Assembly: GCA_022560365.1 (NCBI GenBank)
Contig: JADFTG010000005.1
Coordinates: 1-15,314 of the forward strand
DNA: 15,314 bases
Reading direction: 5' to 3'
From: Chloroflexota bacterium
GTDB lineage: Bacteria > Chloroflexota > Dehalococcoidia > SM23-28-2 > RBG-16-64-32
Both the position numbers and the translations under genes were made by a program. The notes beneath the pieces are model-generated. The model was not told the DNA's origin and ran no database searches. It saw only the letters and a list, made by a program, of their open reading frames with translations. Below, piece by piece: positions 5,201-14,249 of the stretch (position 1 is its first letter; the number at the start of each line of letters is the position of its first letter).

Positions 5201-5228
5201 TGTAACGGAGCGCAAACCGGGGCGTCTA
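5201..5228 (+). promoter_or_regulatory. ECF-type promoter for the sigma-factor gene
   Basis: TGTAAC (5201-5206), a 16-base spacer and CGTCTA (5223-5228) match the 'AAC ... CGTC' pattern of many extracytoplasmic-function promoters (for example the Bacillus SigX/SigM type). The predicted start lies about 60 bases before ATG 5294. Because the downstream gene is itself an ECF sigma factor, autoregulation is the natural reading. An almost identical element precedes cpaB in this window. Confidence 0.6.
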
Positions 5229-5293
5229 TTCATCGTCTCAATCACGGGACATTCGTACAGCCATACCGGATGCAGCACCGAGAGTGAGGGAGC

Positions 5294-5926
5294 ATGACCA
5301 CCGCAAGGATCGCGATCGACAGGGCGCGCAAAGCGCCGGCACGAACGGCCACTCAGCCAGCGACACTCAGAGCCACCGCCGCGGCGGTTCCGGAAGCCAC
5401 TTTCGCCCCAACAGTGTCCGAGTTTTCAGAACTCTACAACGAGTACTTCGGCAAGGTCTTCGCCTACGTCTACGGCCGCGTACAGGATAAGGAAGTCTCC
5501 CTCGATATCGTCGCGGACGTGTTTGAGAAGGCGTTTGTGAAAGTGCGATCTCTGCGCTCCCGCGACTCCTTCGGTTCGTGGCTCTTTACCATCGCCCGCA
5601 ACGAGGTCTCGTCACACTGGCGCAAGGAGAAGCCGGCGCAGAAGGCGGCCCGGGAGGCGGCGATCGAAAAGGAGCTGCACAGCCAGCCGAAGAGCCCCGA
5701 AGAGATACTCGTCCACAAGGAGCGGTTGGCGTTCCTATCCACGCTCGTCCGCGGGCTGCCGAAGCGAGAGCAAGAGATCATAGCGCTCAAGTTCGATGCC
5801 GAGCTCACGAACCGTGAGATCGCCGGCGTCCTCAGCACCAGCGAGGTCAACGTCCGCGTCACGATCTTCCGCGCGCTTCGCAAGCTGCGCGACCGAATGA
5901 AGAACCTCGGCGACAGCCTGGGATGA
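5294..5926 (+). CDS. RNA polymerase ECF-family sigma factor
   Basis: This 210-residue protein has region sigma-2 at about 43-112, including the -10 recognition and core-binding helices FGSWLFTIARNEVSSHWR. A charged linker follows, then region sigma-4 at about 144-202 with the helix-turn-helix LTNREIAGVLSTSEVNVRVT that reads the -35 box. It lacks sigma-1.1 and sigma-3, as ECF factors do. An Ala/Thr/Arg-rich N-terminal extension of about 40 residues is unusual; a shorter start is possible, but ATG 5294 is preceded by GAGGGAG. It overlaps the next gene by ATGA, the usual arrangement of sigma and regulator. The upstream ECF promoter suggests self-activation, and the matching cpaB promoter suggests that the Tad operon is a target. 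The ECF subgroup cannot be assigned by eye. Confidence 0.92.
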   Translation: MTTARIAIDRARKAPARTATQPATLRATAAAVPEATFAPTVSEFSELYNEYFGKVFAYVYGRVQDKEVSLDIVADVFEKAFVKVRSLRSRDSFGSWLFTIARNEVSSHWRKEKPAQKAAREAAIEKELHSQPKSPEEILVHKERLAFLSTLVRGLPKREQEIIALKFDAELTNREIAGVLSTSEVNVRVTIFRALRKLRDRMKNLGDSLG

Positions 5927-6531: not shown

Positions 6532-6972
6532 CTACAAGGATACCTTGGTCAGGCCACCAGCGCGCGCCACGACCGTGTCCCGTTCGCCTCTTTCACCGAC
6601 AGAGTCCGTGGCCGGCTCACCGTCCGCGAGCACCTGCTCTATGCCTTGCAGCAGCGATAGCAGGCGGCGCTGCTTCTCTCGCGGCAGAGTCGCCAGGTAG
6701 CCAAGCAGCTCGCCGTCGATCGTCGATTCGTAACGCTCATAAGTTGCACGAAGGGTGCGCACGGTCGGGTAACCGGCGGCCTCGAACAGGTCGTCCGGAT
6801 CGATGTTCATCGCCTGAGCGACGCGCAGCAACACGGCCGCCGATGGGTTCTTCACCTCGCCGTTCTCAAGCTGTGAAAGGTAGCCCTGGCTAACGGATGA
6901 GCTCTGGGCCAGCTGACCCTGGGTGAGCTCACGCTTGTCGCGAAGCTTTCGGATTCTGTCTCCAAGTTTCAT
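6532..6972 (-). CDS. XRE-family transcriptional regulator (second copy)
   Basis: This 146-residue protein has an N-terminal XRE/Cro-type helix-turn-helix at about residues 4-62 (MKLGDRIRKLRDKRELTQGQ, then SVSQGYLSQLENGEVKNPSA). After a short linker comes a helical segment at 85-114 (IDGELLGYLATLPREKQRRL) shared with its paralogue at 7429-7815, and then a polar tail without recognisable features. ATG 6972 has GAGGGA close upstream. It lies 32 bases after the DUF192 gene and 3 bases before the small C-terminal-only gene, within one minus-strand unit. It is probably a DNA-binding repressor or activator that acts on its own operon or on pilus genes. The effector is unknown. Confidence 0.85.
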   Translation of the reverse strand: MKLGDRIRKLRDKRELTQGQLAQSSSVSQGYLSQLENGEVKNPSAAVLLRVAQAMNIDPDDLFEAAGYPTVRTLRATYERYESTIDGELLGYLATLPREKQRRLLSLLQGIEQVLADGEPATDSVGERGERDTVVARAGGLTKVSL

Positions 6973-7004
6973 ATCGTCCCTCGCTCCAGTGGGGTCGCGG
7001 CGCG

Positions 7005-7415
7005 TCAGACGCGCGTTTCCCGCTTTTCTCTGACGCTTGCCGGCGACTGGTCTTGTGCATGATCGGTCCCCGGCTGGTCGACGATGACCAGCCTGTCACC
7101 CCCCACGACGTCGGCCTTACCGGCGCTGCCGGCGTTCAGCTCCAGCGCGGAGTGACCGCGACTGAGCGCCGCCCAGAACGGCCGGACGTTTTCTGCTACC
7201 TTGACGACTTGCTTCTCCCGGTCCAGGAACACGACATCGATCGGGAAGCGCATGAAGGCGGTGTGGATCGAAGCACTGGGCTCGATCAGGAGCGCCTCAC
7301 CCGACGCCATTTCCCGACGCAGCATGAGGCCACGAAAGCGACCCCAGAAACTGCGTGCGACGGCGACGTCTTCGGCGACGACCGTCCCCTTGGTGACGTT
7401 AAGAATGCGTGCCAC
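7005..7415 (-). CDS. DUF192 domain protein
   Basis: The 136-residue product carries the DUF192 fold over most of its length. Characteristic phrases are SFWGRFRGLMLRREM (about 22-36), EALLIEPSASIHTAFMRFPI (about 40-59), DVVFLDREKQVVKV and GHSALELNAGSA. Many DUF192 proteins are exported and carry an N-terminal signal; this one has none and should be cytoplasmic. The biochemical function of the family is not known. The C-terminal tail (DHAQDQSPASVREKRE) is polar and extra. The start is GTG 7415, with a GGAG-like sequence about 9 bases upstream, 13 bases after the first XRE gene's stop. It sits between two XRE regulators at the end of the Tad gene run. DUF192 genes do occur near Tad clusters, and a link to pilus assembly is possible but unproven. 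Confidence 0.88.
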   Translation of the reverse strand: MARILNVTKGTVVAEDVAVARSFWGRFRGLMLRREMASGEALLIEPSASIHTAFMRFPIDVVFLDREKQVVKVAENVRPFWAALSRGHSALELNAGSAGKADVVGGDRLVIVDQPGTDHAQDQSPASVREKRETRV

Positions 7416-7428
7416 GGTAGTCGCTCCG

Positions 7429-7815
7429 CTAGCTCTTCGCTGCTACGCCGTGAGGTAGCGACTGGCCGGACTTGTCCTGCTGCTGGTCGAGGCTCCTCAG
7501 CAGACGAAGCAGGTAGGTCTGTTGTTCGCGCGGAAAGCGGGCCAGGAAACGCAACAGCTCCGGGTCCACCGTGACGGCGAACTCCGATTCGGATCCGTTG
7601 ACGCCACGGTCGTAGCCGGCCGCGTCCATGAGCACGCGGGGGTCAACGTTGAGCGCCTGCGCCAGCCTGAAGATGACGGCCGCGCTGGGGTTCTGGACTT
7701 CGTCGTTCTCAAGCTGGGAGAGGTACCCCTGGCTGAGGCCGCCCTGCGAGGACAGCTGTGCCTGGCTCATTCCCAGCTCTTCCCGAAGTTGCCTGATTTT
7801 CTTTCCGAGGGCCAT
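7429..7815 (-). CDS. XRE-family transcriptional regulator (first copy)
   Basis: This 128-residue protein has an XRE helix-turn-helix at about 4-62 (MALGKKIRQLREELGMSQAQ, then GLSQGYLSQLENDEVQNPSA). It then has a variable linker and the helical segment VDPELLRFLARFPREQQTYL continuing through LLRLLRSL (83-109). It is clearly paralogous to the regulator at 6532-6972. The frame can be extended to TTG 7830, but ATG 7815 is preferred because it begins at the same position as the paralogue (MKLGDRIRKL). It starts 11 bases after the tadC stop, so it should be co-transcribed with the Tad secretion genes. A feedback regulator of pilus expression is a reasonable inference. No ligand domain is visible. 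Confidence 0.85.
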   Translation of the reverse strand: MALGKKIRQLREELGMSQAQLSSQGGLSQGYLSQLENDEVQNPSAAVIFRLAQALNVDPRVLMDAAGYDRGVNGSESEFAVTVDPELLRFLARFPREQQTYLLRLLRSLDQQQDKSGQSLPHGVAAKS

Positions 7816-7826
7816 GTGTGGATTCT

Positions 7827-8732
7827 TCAAAACGTCTCCGAGATACTGATCACCGCCGGTGCGAGGATCACGGCGAGGAACGCCGGGAAGATCAGCAGCA
7901 CCAACGGGAAGATCATCTTGACCGGCGCTTCGTTAGCGAGGCGCTCGGCTCGCTGGCGTCGTTTTGTTCGCAACTGGTCGGACTGCACGCGCAGCACCCG
8001 AGAGATACCAACGCCGAGTTTCTCGGCCTGGATGATGGATGCAATGAAAATCGAAAGCTCTTCAACGCCGATGCGGTCGGCCATCTCCTGCATCGCCTCG
8101 CGCCGCAGCTTGCCCATCGCGACGTCGCGCAGCATGCGGTGCAGCTCGACGGAGAGAGGACCCTGGCTATGTTCCGCAACGCGCGCGAGAGCAGCGTCCA
8201 GGCCAAGACCGGCCTCCACGCAGGTCGTGATAAGGTCGAGATTGTCCGGAAGGCCGAGGATGACGGCCTTCTGCTTAGCCTTGACGCGGCTCTTGAGCCA
8301 CATCCGAGGCAACCTGTAGCCGAGCACCAGCAGAACAACGGCGACGGCCAGCGACGGCAGGCTACCTATTGTGAAGAAGACCACGAGACCGAGTCCACCG
8401 AAGACAGCGAGTGACGACATCCAAAAGGTGACGAAGGAGCTCAGCTTCATTGGCGAACGGGCCATCGTCAGCTGGTGCTGGATGTCGGACAGGACGGACT
8501 GAGGCAGGAGGTTAGTGGCGCTTCGCGCGAGGCCGTCGATGGCTGGCCTCACGACGCGCTCGCCGAAGGTCATCTCGATGTCAACGTCCGCCTCATCGCG
8601 CTGCGTTGTAGCGCGGGCGCGGAACATCTCAATTCGCGTTTCCATGACGGAGCTGCCCCTGCGGCCGAAGATGGCGACGGAGAGGCAGGCGAAGAGTCCG
8701 GAGAGGACAGCGACGATCAGGACGATAAGCAT
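7827..8732 (-). CDS. tadC: Tad pilus inner-membrane platform protein TadC
   Basis: This 301-residue protein has a T2SSF (GspF-like) domain at about 165-295. It includes LPDNLDLITTCVEAGLGLDA, SVELHRMLRDVAMGKLRREA and the membrane end PLVLLIFPAFLAVILAPAVI. Hydrophobic segments lie at about 2-22, 103-122, 127-142 and 273-293. TadC works with TadB as the membrane platform that couples the CpaF ATPase to pilin extraction and Flp pilus growth. ATG 8732 lies 9 bases after the tadB stop and is preceded by a good AGGAGAG Shine-Dalgarno sequence. Its length and layout (N-terminal helix, cytoplasmic loop, paired helices, T2SSF) are standard. tadB and tadC are distant paralogues, and the assignment rests on gene order and size. 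Confidence 0.9.
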   Translation of the reverse strand: MLIVLIVAVLSGLFACLSVAIFGRRGSSVMETRIEMFRARATTQRDEADVDIEMTFGERVVRPAIDGLARSATNLLPQSVLSDIQHQLTMARSPMKLSSFVTFWMSSLAVFGGLGLVVFFTIGSLPSLAVAVVLLVLGYRLPRMWLKSRVKAKQKAVILGLPDNLDLITTCVEAGLGLDAALARVAEHSQGPLSVELHRMLRDVAMGKLRREAMQEMADRIGVEELSIFIASIIQAEKLGVGISRVLRVQSDQLRTKRRQRAERLANEAPVKMIFPLVLLIFPAFLAVILAPAVISISETF

Positions 8733-8741
8733 TGTTCTCTC

Positions 8742-9722
8742 CTAGATCTCGATCGCCATGATCCGCTTCATTGCGAGATAGCCCAGCACTTCGAGGCCGA
8801 TGGCCACGACGAGGATGAGGCGGCCAATGTTCTCCTCGAAGAAGACGCTCATGTATTCCGGGTTCATGACTGTGAAGATTGCGAACATGAAGAACGGCAG
8901 ACCGCCGACGACGATACCGGTCAGCTTCTGTTGTGAAGTCAGCGTGGCGATATCGCTGCGAATGCGCTCACGTTCGCGCATCGTGTAGGCAACCTTGTCG
9001 AGAATCTCGGCGAGGTTACCACCGACGGCGCGCTGGATGTTGATTGCGATGAGGACCAGGTCCAGGTCCTTGCTATTGATGCGTTGTCCCATCGCGTGGA
9101 GGGCGTTTTCGGACGTCATTCCCAGAGTCGCCTCGCGAAGCATGCGCCGGAGCTCCAGGCCCAGTGGGTCGGGAAGCTGGCTGCCCGCGAACTCCAGGCT
9201 CTGCATCAGGCCATAGCCTGACTTGATTGAATTGGAGACCATGCCCAGCATGTCCACGAGCTGTGCGTTAATGCGCTCGGTCCGCTTATTGCGCTTGTTC
9301 TTCAGCCACTGCGACGGAGCCATGTAGCCGACTACGCCCAGGACGAGCGCGATGAAGAGGTTGAACAGCGAGAAGCCGAAGACCAGCGGCGCCAGGAAGA
9401 GGGCGACCGCGGCGATCAGGCGGATCATGTAGTATTCGCCGACACGCAGGGGCACGCCGGCCCGCTCCAGTTGGAGAGCTATCGCCTCCGAACTGCCCAC
9501 TCTCGCCAGCAGCGAGCTGAACGCCGGAATGCCGGAGTAGTCCTGCTTGTGCCGCAAACCGTCAACTTCTTCTTTGTCGTCCGACGGCTTCTCGTCCTCG
9601 CGGAAGGCCTTCAGGCGGGCTTCCACGAAGCGAGTGTGTGATTCCCGCTTGCCGAAAGCGAGCACGAACAGCATGACAGTGCCGAGGACGAACAGAGAGA
9701 TCGCCAGAAGGAGCAGGTCCAT
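8742..9722 (-). CDS. tadB: Tad pilus inner-membrane platform protein TadB
   Basis: This 326-residue protein has an N-terminal membrane helix (about 3-23), then a charged cytoplasmic loop. A hydrophobic hairpin follows at about 98-138, then a T2SSF domain at about 155-285 (LVDMLGMVSNSIKSGYGLMQ, LGLELRRMLREATLGMTSEN, AINIQRAVGGNLAEILDKVA), and two C-terminal helices at about 272-320. TadB/TadC form the platform of the Flp-type pilus machine. The start codon ATG 9722 comes one base after the TAA of cpaF (TAACATG), which indicates tight translational coupling. The region is complete and in family size. It belongs to the cpaB-cpaE-cpaF-tadB-tadC run. Confidence 0.92.
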   Translation of the reverse strand: MDLLLLAISLFVLGTVMLFVLAFGKRESHTRFVEARLKAFREDEKPSDDKEEVDGLRHKQDYSGIPAFSSLLARVGSSEAIALQLERAGVPLRVGEYYMIRLIAAVALFLAPLVFGFSLFNLFIALVLGVVGYMAPSQWLKNKRNKRTERINAQLVDMLGMVSNSIKSGYGLMQSLEFAGSQLPDPLGLELRRMLREATLGMTSENALHAMGQRINSKDLDLVLIAINIQRAVGGNLAEILDKVAYTMRERERIRSDIATLTSQQKLTGIVVGGLPFFMFAIFTVMNPEYMSVFFEENIGRLILVVAIGLEVLGYLAMKRIMAIEI

Positions 9723-9723
9723 G

Positions 9724-11100
9724 TTAGGCGCTCCTCGCCAGGAATATGCCCTCGGGCAGCTCGATGCCGGCGGGTCCGAACCTCTCGGCGAAGCTCGGGC
9801 GGATGCCGGTCGGGCGCATCTCGCCGTGGATCTTGCCCTCGCCGTCGATGTGCGTCTGATTGAACTCGAAGAGGTCCTGCAGAGTGATGATTTCGCCCTC
9901 CATGCCGGTGCACTCGGTAACCTTAGTCACGCGACGCACACCGTCGCTGAAGCGGGCGAGCTGGATGAAGACGTCGATGGCTGACGCCGTCTGCTCTCGG
10001 ATCGCCCGGTCGGGCAGATCCAGGCTGGCCATCAGCACCATGTTCTCGATGCGGGAGAGGGCATCGCGCGGCGAGTTGGCGTGGATGGTCGAGAGTGAAC
10101 CCTCGTGGCCCGTGTTCATCGCGTTCAGCATGTCGAAGGCTTCAGGGCCGCGCACCTCGCCGATGATGATCCGGTCAGGGCGCATGCGGAGGGTGTTGCG
10201 CAATAGGTCTCGCTGGGTGATCTCGCCCTTGCCATCGATGTTGGCCGGGCGGGCTTCCAGCGAGACGACGTGCGGCTGCTGGATCTTGATTTCCATCGGG
10301 TCTTCAATGGTGAGGATGCGCTCGGTCTCCGGGATGAACACGGACATCGCGTTGAGGAACGTGGTCTTGCCGGTACCCGTACCACCGGAGACGATGATGT
10401 TGAGCTTGAGCCTGACGCAGGCCCTGAGGAACTCGGCCATATCAGGGGTTAGCGTCTGCGCGGCCACCAGGTCTTCCATGCTCAGTTTGTCAGCACGGAA
10501 CTTACGAATGGTGATAGTCGGGCTCTTGGGAGCCACCGGCGGGATGATGACGTTCACACGAGAGCCGTCAGGAAGGCGAGCGTCGACCATGGGCGACGAC
10601 TCGTCCACGCGGCGGCCGATGGGCGCGATGACGCGCTCGATTACGCGCATGATGTGCGTCACGTCGCGGAAGCGAACGTCGCTGAGGTAGAGGACCCCTT
10701 CGCGCTCGAAGAACACTTCTTCGGGCGCGTTGACCATAACTTCCGAGATCGAAGGGTCGCGGAGCAGCGCGTCGATCGGGCCCAGGCCGACAACTTCGTC
10801 GACAACGCGGGCGACGATCTGATCACGCGTGATGCCGCCGACGTTGGACAGCTCGCGCTTGACGAGCGTTTCAGCGGCGCCTTCGACGACGCGACGACGC
10901 TCGTCCGCGGGCAACGCCGCGATCTGGTCGGCGTCCAGCTCTTCGATGAGAATCTGGTGGATGCGGAAAATGAGCTGCTCCATGTCCTCGTTGTAACGGC
11001 CGGGTGTCGTCCGGGCGCCGCCAGCGTTAGCGGGGGCGCCGGCGGTGGGTTCGCCGAGCCGCTGAGAACCGTTGTTTTTGCCGGGTTGCCAACTCGTCAT
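9724..11100 (-). CDS. cpaF: Tad/CpaF secretion ATPase
   Basis: This hexameric motor ATPase (TadA/CpaF, type II/IV secretion family) powers Flp pilus assembly. From ATG 11100 it has 458 residues. An N-terminal Gly/Ala-rich tail (1-35) precedes the helical N-domain. The ATPase core shows Walker A GGTGTGKT (about 239-246), the Asp box TIEDPMEI (about 264-271), Walker [13 protein letters not shown] (about 310-321) and the His box [14 protein letters not shown] (about 331-344). All catalytic motifs are intact. The frame extends to GTG 11115 inside cpaE; ATG 11100 is chosen because it lies 4 bases after the cpaE stop with GGAG about 8 bases upstream. It couples to tadB with a one-base gap. Confidence in the family is very high. 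Confidence 0.95.
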
Positions 11101-11104
11101 GATG

Positions 11105-12346
11105 TCACTCCACACTCACTTCGGCTCTGTCCTGCGTCCCCAGGATCTTCGAGATGATGCCGCCCTTCCGAGCGTCCTTGGACGTCTGCGACTTCTGCTG
11201 GCGAACGCCGCTCAGCGCGAACGACATCTCTACCATGCTCTCTGAGGCCTTCGACTGAGGCTTCGCCAGGACGACGGGCATGCCCAGCTGGGTCGCCGTG
11301 CTGATGTTGCGGTCGTACGGGATCGACCAGAAGACTTCACGGCCGAGCATCCGCTTCACTTCGTGCGGCTGCACGTTTGTGGCTTCGTTCGTTGCGTTGA
11401 TGACGAGCTTGATCTTCTCCTGGGGGAAGTTCCAGGAGCGCAGCATGTCGAGGGCCAGCAGGGTGTCTTTGAGGCTGGCCAGGTCGACGGTGGCGACCAG
11501 CACCACTATGGAGGCCAACTCCAGCGCCCGGGCGACGATGTCGTTGAAGGTGCCTGGCGTATCCAGCACGACGTAGTCGTAGCTTTGCGTCAGGGTCGTC
11601 ACGATCTTTTCGATGTGGCCCGCGTGCACATTGCGCCAGTCCGTGGGCCGGATCGGCGCCGGCAGGATGTAAACGCCGCTGTTGTGCTGGTAGAGGCAGT
11701 CCTGCACCATTTCGGCGGTTATCGAATCTTCGTCCACGGCCAGGTCGGCGATGCTGCGCTCGACCGGGATGTCCATGAGTATCCCGACGTCGCCGAAGCG
11801 GGTGTCGAGGTCGATGAGGACCGCCGACTGGTTGGTCTTTTGAACGAGCGCCGTCGCGACGTTGGTGGCGATCGTAGTCTTGCCGATGCCGCCCTTGGCG
11901 CCGAACACGGTGATCACCGATCCGGCGGCCACTGGCTCCTCCGCTTCGCCGGCGATGCGCTGGCGCTTGCGCTCCTGCTGGGCGAGAACCGTGTAGATGG
12001 AGTTGACCAGGTCCTCGTCCTTGACCGGCGCCGCCAGGAAGTCGCTGACGCCTGCCAGCATCGCCTTACGCATCGCCTCCGGTTGGCGGATGGTGGAGTA
12101 GCCGATGATGGCGGTGTTTGGCAGCATGTCCGATAGCGCCTCGACGGTCTGGAGAGCGCGGATCGTCGGCTCTTCGACGGCGATCACGATGACGTCCGGG
12201 TCGGACTTCTTAGCCAGCGTGACGGCCTCGATGCCGTAGCCTGCTTCGCCGACCACGGTGAAGCCGGAGACGGCGAGAGTTTTGTTGACGTTGGACCGGC
12301 TGTTGAGGTCCTGGTCGATGACTGCTACTCGTGGATTGCGTGTCAT
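11105..12346 (-). CDS. cpaE: CpaE-like pilus assembly protein: pseudo-receiver plus MinD/ParA ATPase
   Basis: This 413-residue protein has an N-terminal response-regulator-like domain (about 4-120) and a MinD/ParA-type ATPase (about 140-370). The ATPase has the deviant Walker A GAKGGIGKTT (about 149-158), LIDLDTRFGDVG (Walker A' region) and VVLDTPGTF (Walker B region). CpaE positions the Tad machine in the cell in characterised systems. In the receiver, the place of the phospho-accepting Asp reads VIVIAVEEP, so it cannot be phosphorylated in the usual way; the conserved Lys in AAPVK remains. ATG 12346 is preferred over ATG 12379 because it gives the typical MTRNPRVAVID start and avoids a 25-base overlap with cpaB. 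Its stop lies 4 bases before cpaF. Confidence 0.92.
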   Translation of the reverse strand: MTRNPRVAVIDQDLNSRSNVNKTLAVSGFTVVGEAGYGIEAVTLAKKSDPDVIVIAVEEPTIRALQTVEALSDMLPNTAIIGYSTIRQPEAMRKAMLAGVSDFLAAPVKDEDLVNSIYTVLAQQERKRQRIAGEAEEPVAAGSVITVFGAKGGIGKTTIATNVATALVQKTNQSAVLIDLDTRFGDVGILMDIPVERSIADLAVDEDSITAEMVQDCLYQHNSGVYILPAPIRPTDWRNVHAGHIEKIVTTLTQSYDYVVLDTPGTFNDIVARALELASIVVLVATVDLASLKDTLLALDMLRSWNFPQEKIKLVINATNEATNVQPHEVKRMLGREVFWSIPYDRNISTATQLGMPVVLAKPQSKASESMVEMSFALSGVRQQKSQTSKDARKGGIISKILGTQDRAEVSVE

Positions 12347-12354
12347 ATTCTCGC

Positions 12355-13176
12355 TCACGAACCAGCGAATGTCTGGCACGTTGGAAGGCTGGCGTTAATA
12401 CTTGAGTCTCCGAACGGGCGCAGCGACATCCACAACTGCGTCTCAACACCATCGCCGCTCACACTCCCCTGCGCCGCGGCAAGCTGCCAGGCCTCTTCCG
12501 AAGTGACAGCCAGCGTGGCTCGGTTGGCCTCCGAGTTGGCCTCCACCGCGGCGATGCCGACAGCATCAGACGGACTGGTCGCCCGGGTGAAACCGCTGTT
12601 CAGGGCCAGCACTGCTACGTTCTGAAGCACGTAGCAGGCCGACGCGCCCGTAAGCGTGCCTTCATCCGGCGCACTGATGAGCTCACCGGTGAGGATCAGG
12701 TCCACGTAGTCACCGGGCCGGACGAGACCGCCGGCGGCGCCGACAGCGCTTATAGAGATGGTGAACGCTCGCATGCCCTCCGGGATGATGAGGGAGAGCG
12801 GCGTTGCGTCACCGAAGAGGTCCAGCGCGCTGCCGGGACTTGTGAGTTTCGACTGCAAGACCTGCTCACCGAGCACGATCGAGACCTGGGTCGTCTGACC
12901 GATAGCGTCCTCGGTCTCGCTAAAGGCACCGGTCAAGACGAGGTCGAGAGGGATCGCCTTGACGACGAGCATTTCGGCCGTGATCTGGGTCAGCGGATCG
13001 ATCTCGGCTGCGGCGACGACCACCGTGCGGGTGGTAACCGGAGCGACCGTCTCTCCGCCGCCATCCAGGGTGCTCAGGTAGAGCCCGATGAGAATTGCGG
13101 AGATCAGGCCCAGCAGCAGTGCCGCAAGCAGCAACACGCGGCTGTTTCCGCTGCCAATAGCCATGTTCTTGATCAT
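12355..13176 (-). CDS. cpaB: Flp pilus assembly protein CpaB/RcpC (SAF domain)
   Basis: This 273-residue protein has an N-terminal membrane anchor (about 13-34). An SAF domain follows at about 45-107 (TTRTVVVAAAEIDPLTQITA), then an RcpC/CpaB C-terminal domain at about 115-230 (LSLIIPEGMRAFTISISAVG, GLVRPGDYVDLILTGEL). The extracytoplasmic domains are thought to interact with cell wall or outer-envelope parts of the Tad machine. The frame runs upstream to ATG 13218, but ATG 13176 has a clear Shine-Dalgarno sequence (AAGGGGG, 6 bases before) and gives the usual MIKN...RVLLLAALLLG anchor. It is the first gene of the cpaB-cpaE-cpaF-tadB-tadC unit and is preceded by an ECF-type promoter and a palindrome. 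It ends 8 bases before cpaE. Confidence 0.9.
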   Translation of the reverse strand: MIKNMAIGSGNSRVLLLAALLLGLISAILIGLYLSTLDGGGETVAPVTTRTVVVAAAEIDPLTQITAEMLVVKAIPLDLVLTGAFSETEDAIGQTTQVSIVLGEQVLQSKLTSPGSALDLFGDATPLSLIIPEGMRAFTISISAVGAAGGLVRPGDYVDLILTGELISAPDEGTLTGASACYVLQNVAVLALNSGFTRATSPSDAVGIAAVEANSEANRATLAVTSEEAWQLAAAQGSVSGDGVETQLWMSLRPFGDSSINASLPTCQTFAGS

Positions 13177-13223
13177 GGGTTTCCCCCTTGGTTTTGATGT
13201 GCTTATGGGAAGGTTCAAAATAG

Positions 13224-13251
13224 ATGACGCTGGCCGCCCAACATCGTTACA
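13224..13251 (-). promoter_or_regulatory. ECF-type promoter for the cpaB-tadC operon
   Basis: On the minus strand TGTAAC (13251-13246), a 16-base spacer and CGTCAT (13229-13224) reproduce the element upstream of the ECF sigma gene (TGTAAC-N16-CGTCTA). The -35 heptamer TGTAACG is identical and 4 of 6 bases of the -10 match in place. It lies about 47 bases before ATG 13176 and beyond the terminator of the flp-tadE unit, exactly where the operon needs its own promoter. Confidence 0.55.
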
Positions 13252-13386: not shown

Positions 13387-13821
13387 CTATTCGATTCTCA
13401 TTTCCGCTTCAGAGCTGAAGGTGATGGGAGACCCCATTCCACCTCCGAATATGCCAAGAACGTTGGCGAGTGGAGTGATCAGGTCGTAGTCATATTGGAC
13501 GTCGACCGAGACGGACTCGCCGGGTGCGCCCTGAGCGTTGACGATCGTGACGTTAAGATCATCCTCGACCAACGAGCTTGCGATGTCGACGACACGCGCT
13601 TCGATCGTCGCTGAATCGGCACCAACAGCGCCGATGCGTGCGCCCTCGCGCGCCGCGTTGGTGACCGTGATCCAGGCGTGGAACCCCATGCCGAAGTCGA
13701 CGATGGCGAAGACCAGGATAAGGAAGATGGGGACGACCATCGCGAACTCCACGAGGCTCTGCCCTTTCTCGCCGTCTCTGCGGTTCCTGCCAGTCCACTT
13801 CCCAGTCACTTGTGTATCCAT
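13387..13821 (-). CDS. TadE-like pseudopilin
   Basis: The protein has 144 residues from ATG 13821. A basic leader (MDTQVTGKWTGRNRRDGEKG) is followed by GQSLVEFAMVVPIFLILVFA, the type IV prepilin-like cleavage and membrane segment of TadE/TadF proteins. Cleavage would follow the Gly, with Glu at position +5. Next comes TNAAREGARIGAVG, the common TadE continuation, and a small extracellular domain. TadE-like minor pilins assist Flp pilus assembly. The frame is open to 13941, but the upstream part has no pilin character and overlaps the flp-tadE hairpin region, so ATG 13821 is preferred although its Shine-Dalgarno sequence is weak. It lies 103 bases downstream of flp and upstream of a terminator. 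Confidence 0.85.
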   Translation of the reverse strand: MDTQVTGKWTGRNRRDGEKGQSLVEFAMVVPIFLILVFAIVDFGMGFHAWITVTNAAREGARIGAVGADSATIEARVVDIASSLVEDDLNVTIVNAQGAPGESVSVDVQYDYDLITPLANVLGIFGGGMGSPITFSSEAEMRIE

Positions 13822-13874
13822 TTCCGAGGCCCTGTCCGGCCCCTCGTTTCCGTCGGGTTTTGAAGGCTGATGGA

Positions 13875-13902
13875 GGCGGACGGACCGCGTGGCCCGTCCG
13901 CC
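13875..13902 (-). other. Strong hairpin between flp and the tadE-like gene
   Basis: GGCGGACGGGCC and GGTCCGTCCGCC form a 12-pair stem (one G-U pair) around the tetraloop ACGC, starting 22 bases after the flp stop. The following sequence, TCCATCAGCC, is not T-rich, so it is unlikely to be an efficient terminator. A partial terminator, or an RNA-stabilising hairpin that raises pilin over TadE expression, would fit the layout. Confidence 0.55.
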
Positions 13903-13924
13903 AGCCATTGCCTTAACGCTTTGC

Positions 13925-14125
13925 CTAGCTGCCAGCGGCACCGGTCAGCTCGGATTCGACATCGCCAAACACGTTGACGATACCGCCGGCCAGCAGAGCC
14001 AGAGCGCCGATCGCGGCTACCGCGACCAGGGCGATGATCAGGCCGTACTCTGCGAGAGCCTGACCCGCCTCATCCTGGACACGTACGACCAGCTTGCGAA
14101 GCGCTTCGTTGATCTTGGAGAACAT
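13925..14125 (-). CDS. flp: Flp family type IVb pilin
   Basis: This 66-residue major pilin of the Tad system has a short leader (MFSKINEALRKLVVRVQDEA). The class-specific processing site follows: G21 is followed by QALAEYGLIIALVAVAA, giving Glu at +5 and Tyr at +6 of the mature protein. The hydrophobic helix then runs to about residue 53, with a short tail ending GAAGS. The mature pilin of about 45 residues is normal for Flp. The frame is open to 14242, but ATG 14125 is certain in practice because AAGGAGG lies 6 bases upstream and the leader fits the family. It has its own leader with an ECF-like promoter and is followed by a hairpin, consistent with high expression. The prepilin peptidase is not in this window. 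Confidence 0.95.
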   Translation of the reverse strand: MFSKINEALRKLVVRVQDEAGQALAEYGLIIALVAVAAIGALALLAGGIVNVFGDVESELTGAAGS

Positions 14126-14183: not shown

Positions 14184-14212
14184 AAGATGGCGGCCTTCGA
14201 TCCGGCGTTACA
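14184..14212 (-). promoter_or_regulatory. Possible ECF-like promoter for flp
   Basis: TGTAACG begins at 14212 on the minus strand, the same heptamer as in the sigma and cpaB promoters. With a 17-base spacer the -10 would be CATCTT (14189-14184), which keeps only four of six positions of CGTCTA. The element lies about 60 bases before ATG 14125. The -35 match is exact, while the spacing and -10 are weaker than in the other two. Confidence 0.4.
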
Positions 14213-14249
14213 GGCTCCGCTGCAGGTGCAAGGCTTATTCACCCCTCAG

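Follow-up and report, generated by a model that had tools for sequence, protein, structure and literature searches.

The sigma gene and the Tad/Flp pilus genes of a 15,314-nucleotide (nt) stretch of Chloroflexota contig JADFTG010000005.1 (hereafter the window) are preceded by a common bipartite element, TGTAAC in the -35 position and CGTCT or a close variant in the -10 position (Table 1). With a probability of roughly 0.78, this motif is the promoter of one extracytoplasmic function (ECF) sigma factor, encoded in the window itself, which would activate its own gene from the motif and drive from the same element the pilin gene flp, the cpaB-tad operon, a small structured RNA found in relatives and several genes with envelope or signalling functions.

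On the plus strand, TGTAACGGAGCGCAAACCGGGGCGTC lies at 5201-5226 upstream of the sigma gene and, on the minus strand, TGTAACGATGTTGGGCGGCCAGCGTC at 13251-13226 upstream of cpaB. Both sites are as an earlier reading made from the letters alone (the sequence-only reading) had described them, the spacer being 16 nt when counted from TGTAAC and 15 nt if the following G belongs to the box; the sigma unit (+) and the tad unit (-) also converge, as that reading had stated. The likely start of cpaB is the ATG at 13176 and not the TTG at 13218 of the open reading frame (ORF) list, so that the promoter ends approximately 48 nt upstream of the start. A third site had been missed: TGTAACGCCGGATCGAAGGCCGCCATCT occupies 14212-14185 of the minus strand, 87 nt upstream of the flp ATG at 14125. 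The ORF list opens the flp ORF at a GTG at 14242, a start that would place this promoter within the ORF. The number of motif matches expected by chance in the window is 0.03, and two or more were obtained in 1 of 200 shuffles. Across the window genome (1.65 Mb in 343 contigs, 76% complete), the exact motif was found six times and its reversed control not at all.

The sigma protein is of the ECF type, scoring 90.3 bits against profile TIGR02937 (cut-off 42.9). Close orthologues (58-100% identity) were recovered from 17 of the 61 genomes searched, and [TC]GTAAC-N16/17-CGTCT precedes the gene in all 17; the boxes in this count were set by the search pattern, its informative part being that every orthologue matches. 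TATT directly follows CGTC in 13 of the 17 promoters, and over eight lineages both the spacer (35%) and the upstream flank (34%) have diverged far. The form TGTAAC-N16/17-CGTCTATT is present in all 15 genomes of the family (with G007, the CGTCTATT match sits away from any sigma gene) and in none of 235 other Dehalococcoidia genomes sampled, four of which have the sigma gene with a different -10 extension. A conserved promoter of its own makes autoregulation of the sigma gene likely, with the site presumably recognized by the gene product. It was considered whether the motif might simply mark ECF genes in general, and this was rejected because the other ECF genes examined lack it (0/12 paralogue loci, 0/5 in genomes G000 and G001, and 0/13 and 0/10 in two sets of further ECF matches). 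A census of 16 named loci (flanks up to 10 kb, ORFs of at least 120 amino acids [aa], sites counted from 450 nt upstream to 60 nt within the ORF) located a site at 29 of 394 ORFs, these being 15 sigma genes, 11 Tad genes (cpaB, or tadE by way of the flp site) and three others, and the reversed control gave none among the 394. That two GTAAC/CGTC words merely fell together in a 15-kb window, devoid of regulatory meaning, is highly improbable; the shortness of the boxes and an ECF consensus that varies little between bacteria would favour it, but the element has been kept across genera with diverged flanks, and both chance and repeat artefact were rejected by the shuffles, the reversed controls and the conservation.

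Loci of flp were examined in 16 genomes, two of which, having 97 and 20 nt upstream, were left out of the count; the remaining 14, with 290 nt or more upstream, all carry the site (shuffles, 7/2800; reversed control, none). The flp genes of G005, G006 and G007 also possess it and were not counted because their loci had been fetched by the motif, while three genomes of family f2 (L278, L279, L280) have two tandem ECF-type sites approximately 75 nt apart upstream of flp. The cpaB loci were scored with a matrix derived from the sigma promoters only. In 13 of the 14 from the family, the top-scoring site lies between -34 and -103, with shuffle p values no higher than 0.035 for six and weak ones (0.05-0.18) for seven; the exception is a cpaB-like copy in G006 (31% identity), which has no site. 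The rest of the order provided eight loci, one with a clear site (G023, both cpaB copies of which have it), six without, and one, in G018, with a hit at -242 that was not counted as support because it lies inside the upstream ORF; a ninth locus was too short. No site was detected within 400 nt of cpaB in three f2 genomes and, outside the order, none was seen at seven cpaB loci or on the Tad strand of six Tad regions inspected, one match being on the other strand. Conservation upstream of the sigma and cpaB orthologues, together with enrichment of the motif (below), supports the proposal of the sequence-only reading that the Tad pilus belongs to an ECF-controlled regulon, in which this sigma factor rather than another ECF factor would read the Tad sites.

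Two sets of observations weigh against a single sigma factor. Within family f1, the -10 boxes differ systematically between the Tad promoters (CATCT at flp, CGTCA or CATC at cpaB) and the sigma promoter (CGTCT). Furthermore, in family f4 a TGTAAC..CGTCT site precedes flp in both genomes with a visible flp (L315, L316), yet the motif was found at none of the 14 ECF genes examined there (of 22 matches). This flp site rules out the idea that families without the sigma gene lack Tad sites, and implies either a diverged or unexamined f4 sigma factor or a Tad promoter that is not tied to this sigma factor alone. Such findings would fit a sigma factor that autoregulates through CGTCT while the Tad promoters belong to a different ECF factor sharing the GTAAC -35 box, as would the presence of eight ECF matches in the genome. 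On the other hand, the flp sites of f2 and f5 read CGTCT, as at the sigma site, and the sigma gene and cpaB, wherever a single contig holds both (13 of the 17 genomes), are always neighbours and convergent. The CATCT form, the flp type in f1, gave 51 matches in 15 family genomes versus 2 for its reversed control. Inspection of 22 of these loci showed, among the genes downstream, flp, cpaB and genes for an OmpR-like response regulator and a conserved ~100-aa protein, and no ECF gene. A separate factor for the Tad promoters is regarded as distinctly unlikely, and recognition of both kinds of site by the one sigma factor is preferred. The ~100-aa protein (C.HHW...GRCKxCGEEREFRNS) is encoded behind TGTAACGTA..CATCT in several genera (L285:1147-1461, minus strand; L287, L293, L306, L309 and L297), and its only Pfam match, to DUF5817, is sub-threshold.

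In four congeneric genomes, TGTAACN15-18CGTCW was matched 32 times, compared to 4 for the reversed pattern. When targets were paired between these genomes by the likeness of the matched sequence and of the start that follows it, with domains scanned in one copy each, sites were found to be kept in 4/4 genomes upstream of the sigma gene, cpaB, a gene for a zinc-ribbon RDD membrane protein and one for a Trans_reg_C protein, and in fewer upstream of an FtsH-like gene (2), a gene for a GAF-HD (HD-GYP-like) protein (2) and one for a LysM-transglycosylase (1). The candidate regulon is broader than first proposed, encompassing flp, the small RNA of relatives, and envelope and signalling genes; the wider targets are termed candidates because the motif may be common to other ECF factors. 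Two of the eight sites in the window genome (C23 and C299) have no clear target. At L070:797-2115, a motif site is followed by genes for a Trans_reg_C protein and then a protein with a match to sigma region 4 only (G000).

The small RNA was first noticed as a conserved word, GGTCCCAAACCCTCCCTTTTGGG, behind six motif sites. Among 25 genomes of the order, 11 contain the word when it is searched for alone with at most one mismatch, and TGTAAC..CGTCT stands just upstream of all 11 copies, including the five found by the word alone. Folding of three sequences yielded two hairpins (z -4.9 to -6.7), one with a CCCUCCC-containing loop and the second terminator-like, with four pairs changed on both sides. 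With a model constructed from the 11 copies, 15 hits scoring over 50 bits were obtained across the order, of which four lack the promoter and 11 have it; the window genome gave none. No Rfam family matched the RNA itself in the six loci scanned up to E 1; a sub-threshold match (E 0.76) concerned a stretch neighbouring the RNA in L175. The RNA is a candidate new small-RNA family and, as a guess from its sequence, the CCCUCCC loop might block ribosome-binding sites.

Directly downstream of the sigma gene is a gene for a membrane protein that probably holds the sigma factor, as a putative anti-sigma factor. Ten orthologous partners are 416-457 aa long and have an outer domain with the predicted fold of an RseB-type sensor, whereas that of the window genus is cut to 112 aa. 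By its alignment with the full-length family (hhalign probability 97.7, E 2.3e-12, 39 columns), the 112-aa protein is a reduced form from which the sensor domain has been lost. No RseA family was among the Pfam hits of the partner up to E 1, the structure of the cytoplasmic part was predicted with low confidence, and solved-structure sequences searched with a profile of the aligned partners returned nothing significant. Alternatively, the promoters may belong to this sigma factor while the downstream gene does not encode an anti-sigma factor, activity being set by transcription or by another protein. Consistent with this, the partner matched no anti-sigma family profile, the window genus and G018 lack the outer domain, and G006 has an interrupted frame. 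Nevertheless, the partner gene overlaps the sigma gene by 4 nt or is closely coupled to it in all 15 orthologues whose partner could be read, and its product has a hydrophobic segment and, in other genera, the RseB-like outer domain; the alternative is considered rather unlikely. With the partner as anti-sigma factor, an envelope or surface signal would free the sigma factor, which would then amplify itself, build Tad pili and produce the small RNA.

This arrangement resembles the sigma-E/RseA/RseB system of E. coli and the AlgU/MucA/MucB system of Pseudomonas, with a likely autoregulated ECF sigma factor, a co-encoded membrane partner, an RseB-fold outer domain and a small RNA in the regulon; the sigma-E regulon, too, includes small RNAs. 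It differs in that the RseB-like domain is fused to the membrane protein rather than separate, no RseA domain is recognizable, and the candidate regulon is centred on Tad pili with the boxes TGTAAC/CGTCT. ECF promoters of the B. subtilis sigma-X/W/M type are similar in both boxes, which are spaced by 16-17 nt, but follow a general ECF consensus that is not known to be linked to Tad pili. A passage of PMC3832394 reports that loss of SigX in P. aeruginosa lowers flp (17-fold) and tad transcripts; since pprB, encoding a direct activator of Flp pili, falls too, the effect may be indirect, whereas here the motif lies directly at flp and cpaB. The Tad operon of Bdellovibrio is directed by an alternative sigma factor as well, according to a passage of PMC5430801, but this is FliA, a flagellar rather than an ECF factor. 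The open-licence PubMed Central full text searched yielded no case of Tad promoters under the direct control of an ECF sigma factor, nor did searches there on ECF classification and the motif string return anything on this system. It is an even bet that a sigma-E-like circuit as a whole (an autoregulated ECF sigma factor, a one-piece anti-sigma factor with an RseB-type sensor and an ECF-driven CCCUCCC-loop RNA) operates in these Chloroflexota and that its conserved core output is Tad pili, assembled upon a signal from the envelope or surface. Through its shared promoter motif, the proposed circuit points to control of surface attachment by an envelope-sensing system in an uncultured Chloroflexota order, a possible link paralleling sigma-E/RseB with a different output; it provides a testable regulatory circuit and a promoter motif for predicting regulons in that order.

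Table 1. Promoters, genes and RNA loci of the proposed circuit (window coordinates unless a locus is named)
Feature	Position	Strand	Basis
ECF-type promoter of sigma gene	5201..5230	+	-35 TGTAAC, 16-nt spacer, -10 CGTCTATT; motif in 17/17 orthologues
ECF sigma factor, 210 aa, regions 2 and 4	5294..5926	+	Pfam PF04542, PF08281; NCBIfam TIGR02937 above cut-off
Short anti-sigma-like protein, 112 aa	5923..6261	+	One cytoplasmic repeat and C-terminal hydrophobic segment
Second helix-turn-helix (HTH) regulator	6532..6972	-	Pfam HTH_3
HTH regulator, end of tad gene string	7429..7830	-	Pfam HTH_3
tadC-type T2SSF protein	7827..8732	-	Pfam PF00482
tadB-type T2SSF protein	8742..9722	-	Pfam PF00482
tadA/cpaF ATPase	9724..11115	-	Pfam T2SSE; TIGR03819 333 bits, under cut-off 373
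cpaE/tadZ-like ATPase with N-terminal receiver domain	11105..12379	-	Pfam
cpaB/rcpC, 273 aa	12355..13176	-	NCBIfam TIGR03177 above cut-off (on longer ORF); Pfam RcpC
ECF-type promoter of cpaB and downstream tad genes	13224..13251	-	TGTAAC-N16-CGTCAT
TadE-like gene, start uncertain	13387..13908	-	Pfam PF07811 67.6 bits
flp, Tad/Flp pilin, 66 aa, ATG after AAAGGAGGAG	13925..14125	-	Pfam PF04964 25-27 bits, under gathering score 32.2
ECF-type promoter of flp	14185..14212	-	TGTAAC-N17-CATCT; site in 14/14 genomes with at least 290 nt upstream
Small RNA loci in relatives	L205-L215; e.g. L210:677-745	- (L210)	

The Tad/Flp set of the window comprises the Flp pilin, CpaB, CpaE/TadZ, TadA, TadB/TadC and TadE, with Flp (Pfam) and TadA (NCBIfam) scoring under the curated cut-offs; no secretin RcpA/CpaC was detected among the window ORFs scanned, the rest of the genome not having been searched. 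The two HTH regulators that close the tad gene string on its 3' side (6532-7830) are accompanied by a DUF192 gene. Elsewhere in the window, GGTAACCCGCGCTCGATTGTCGCGTCA occurs at 1274-1248 of the minus strand inside an FAD-oxidase (glcD-like) gene, probably by chance.
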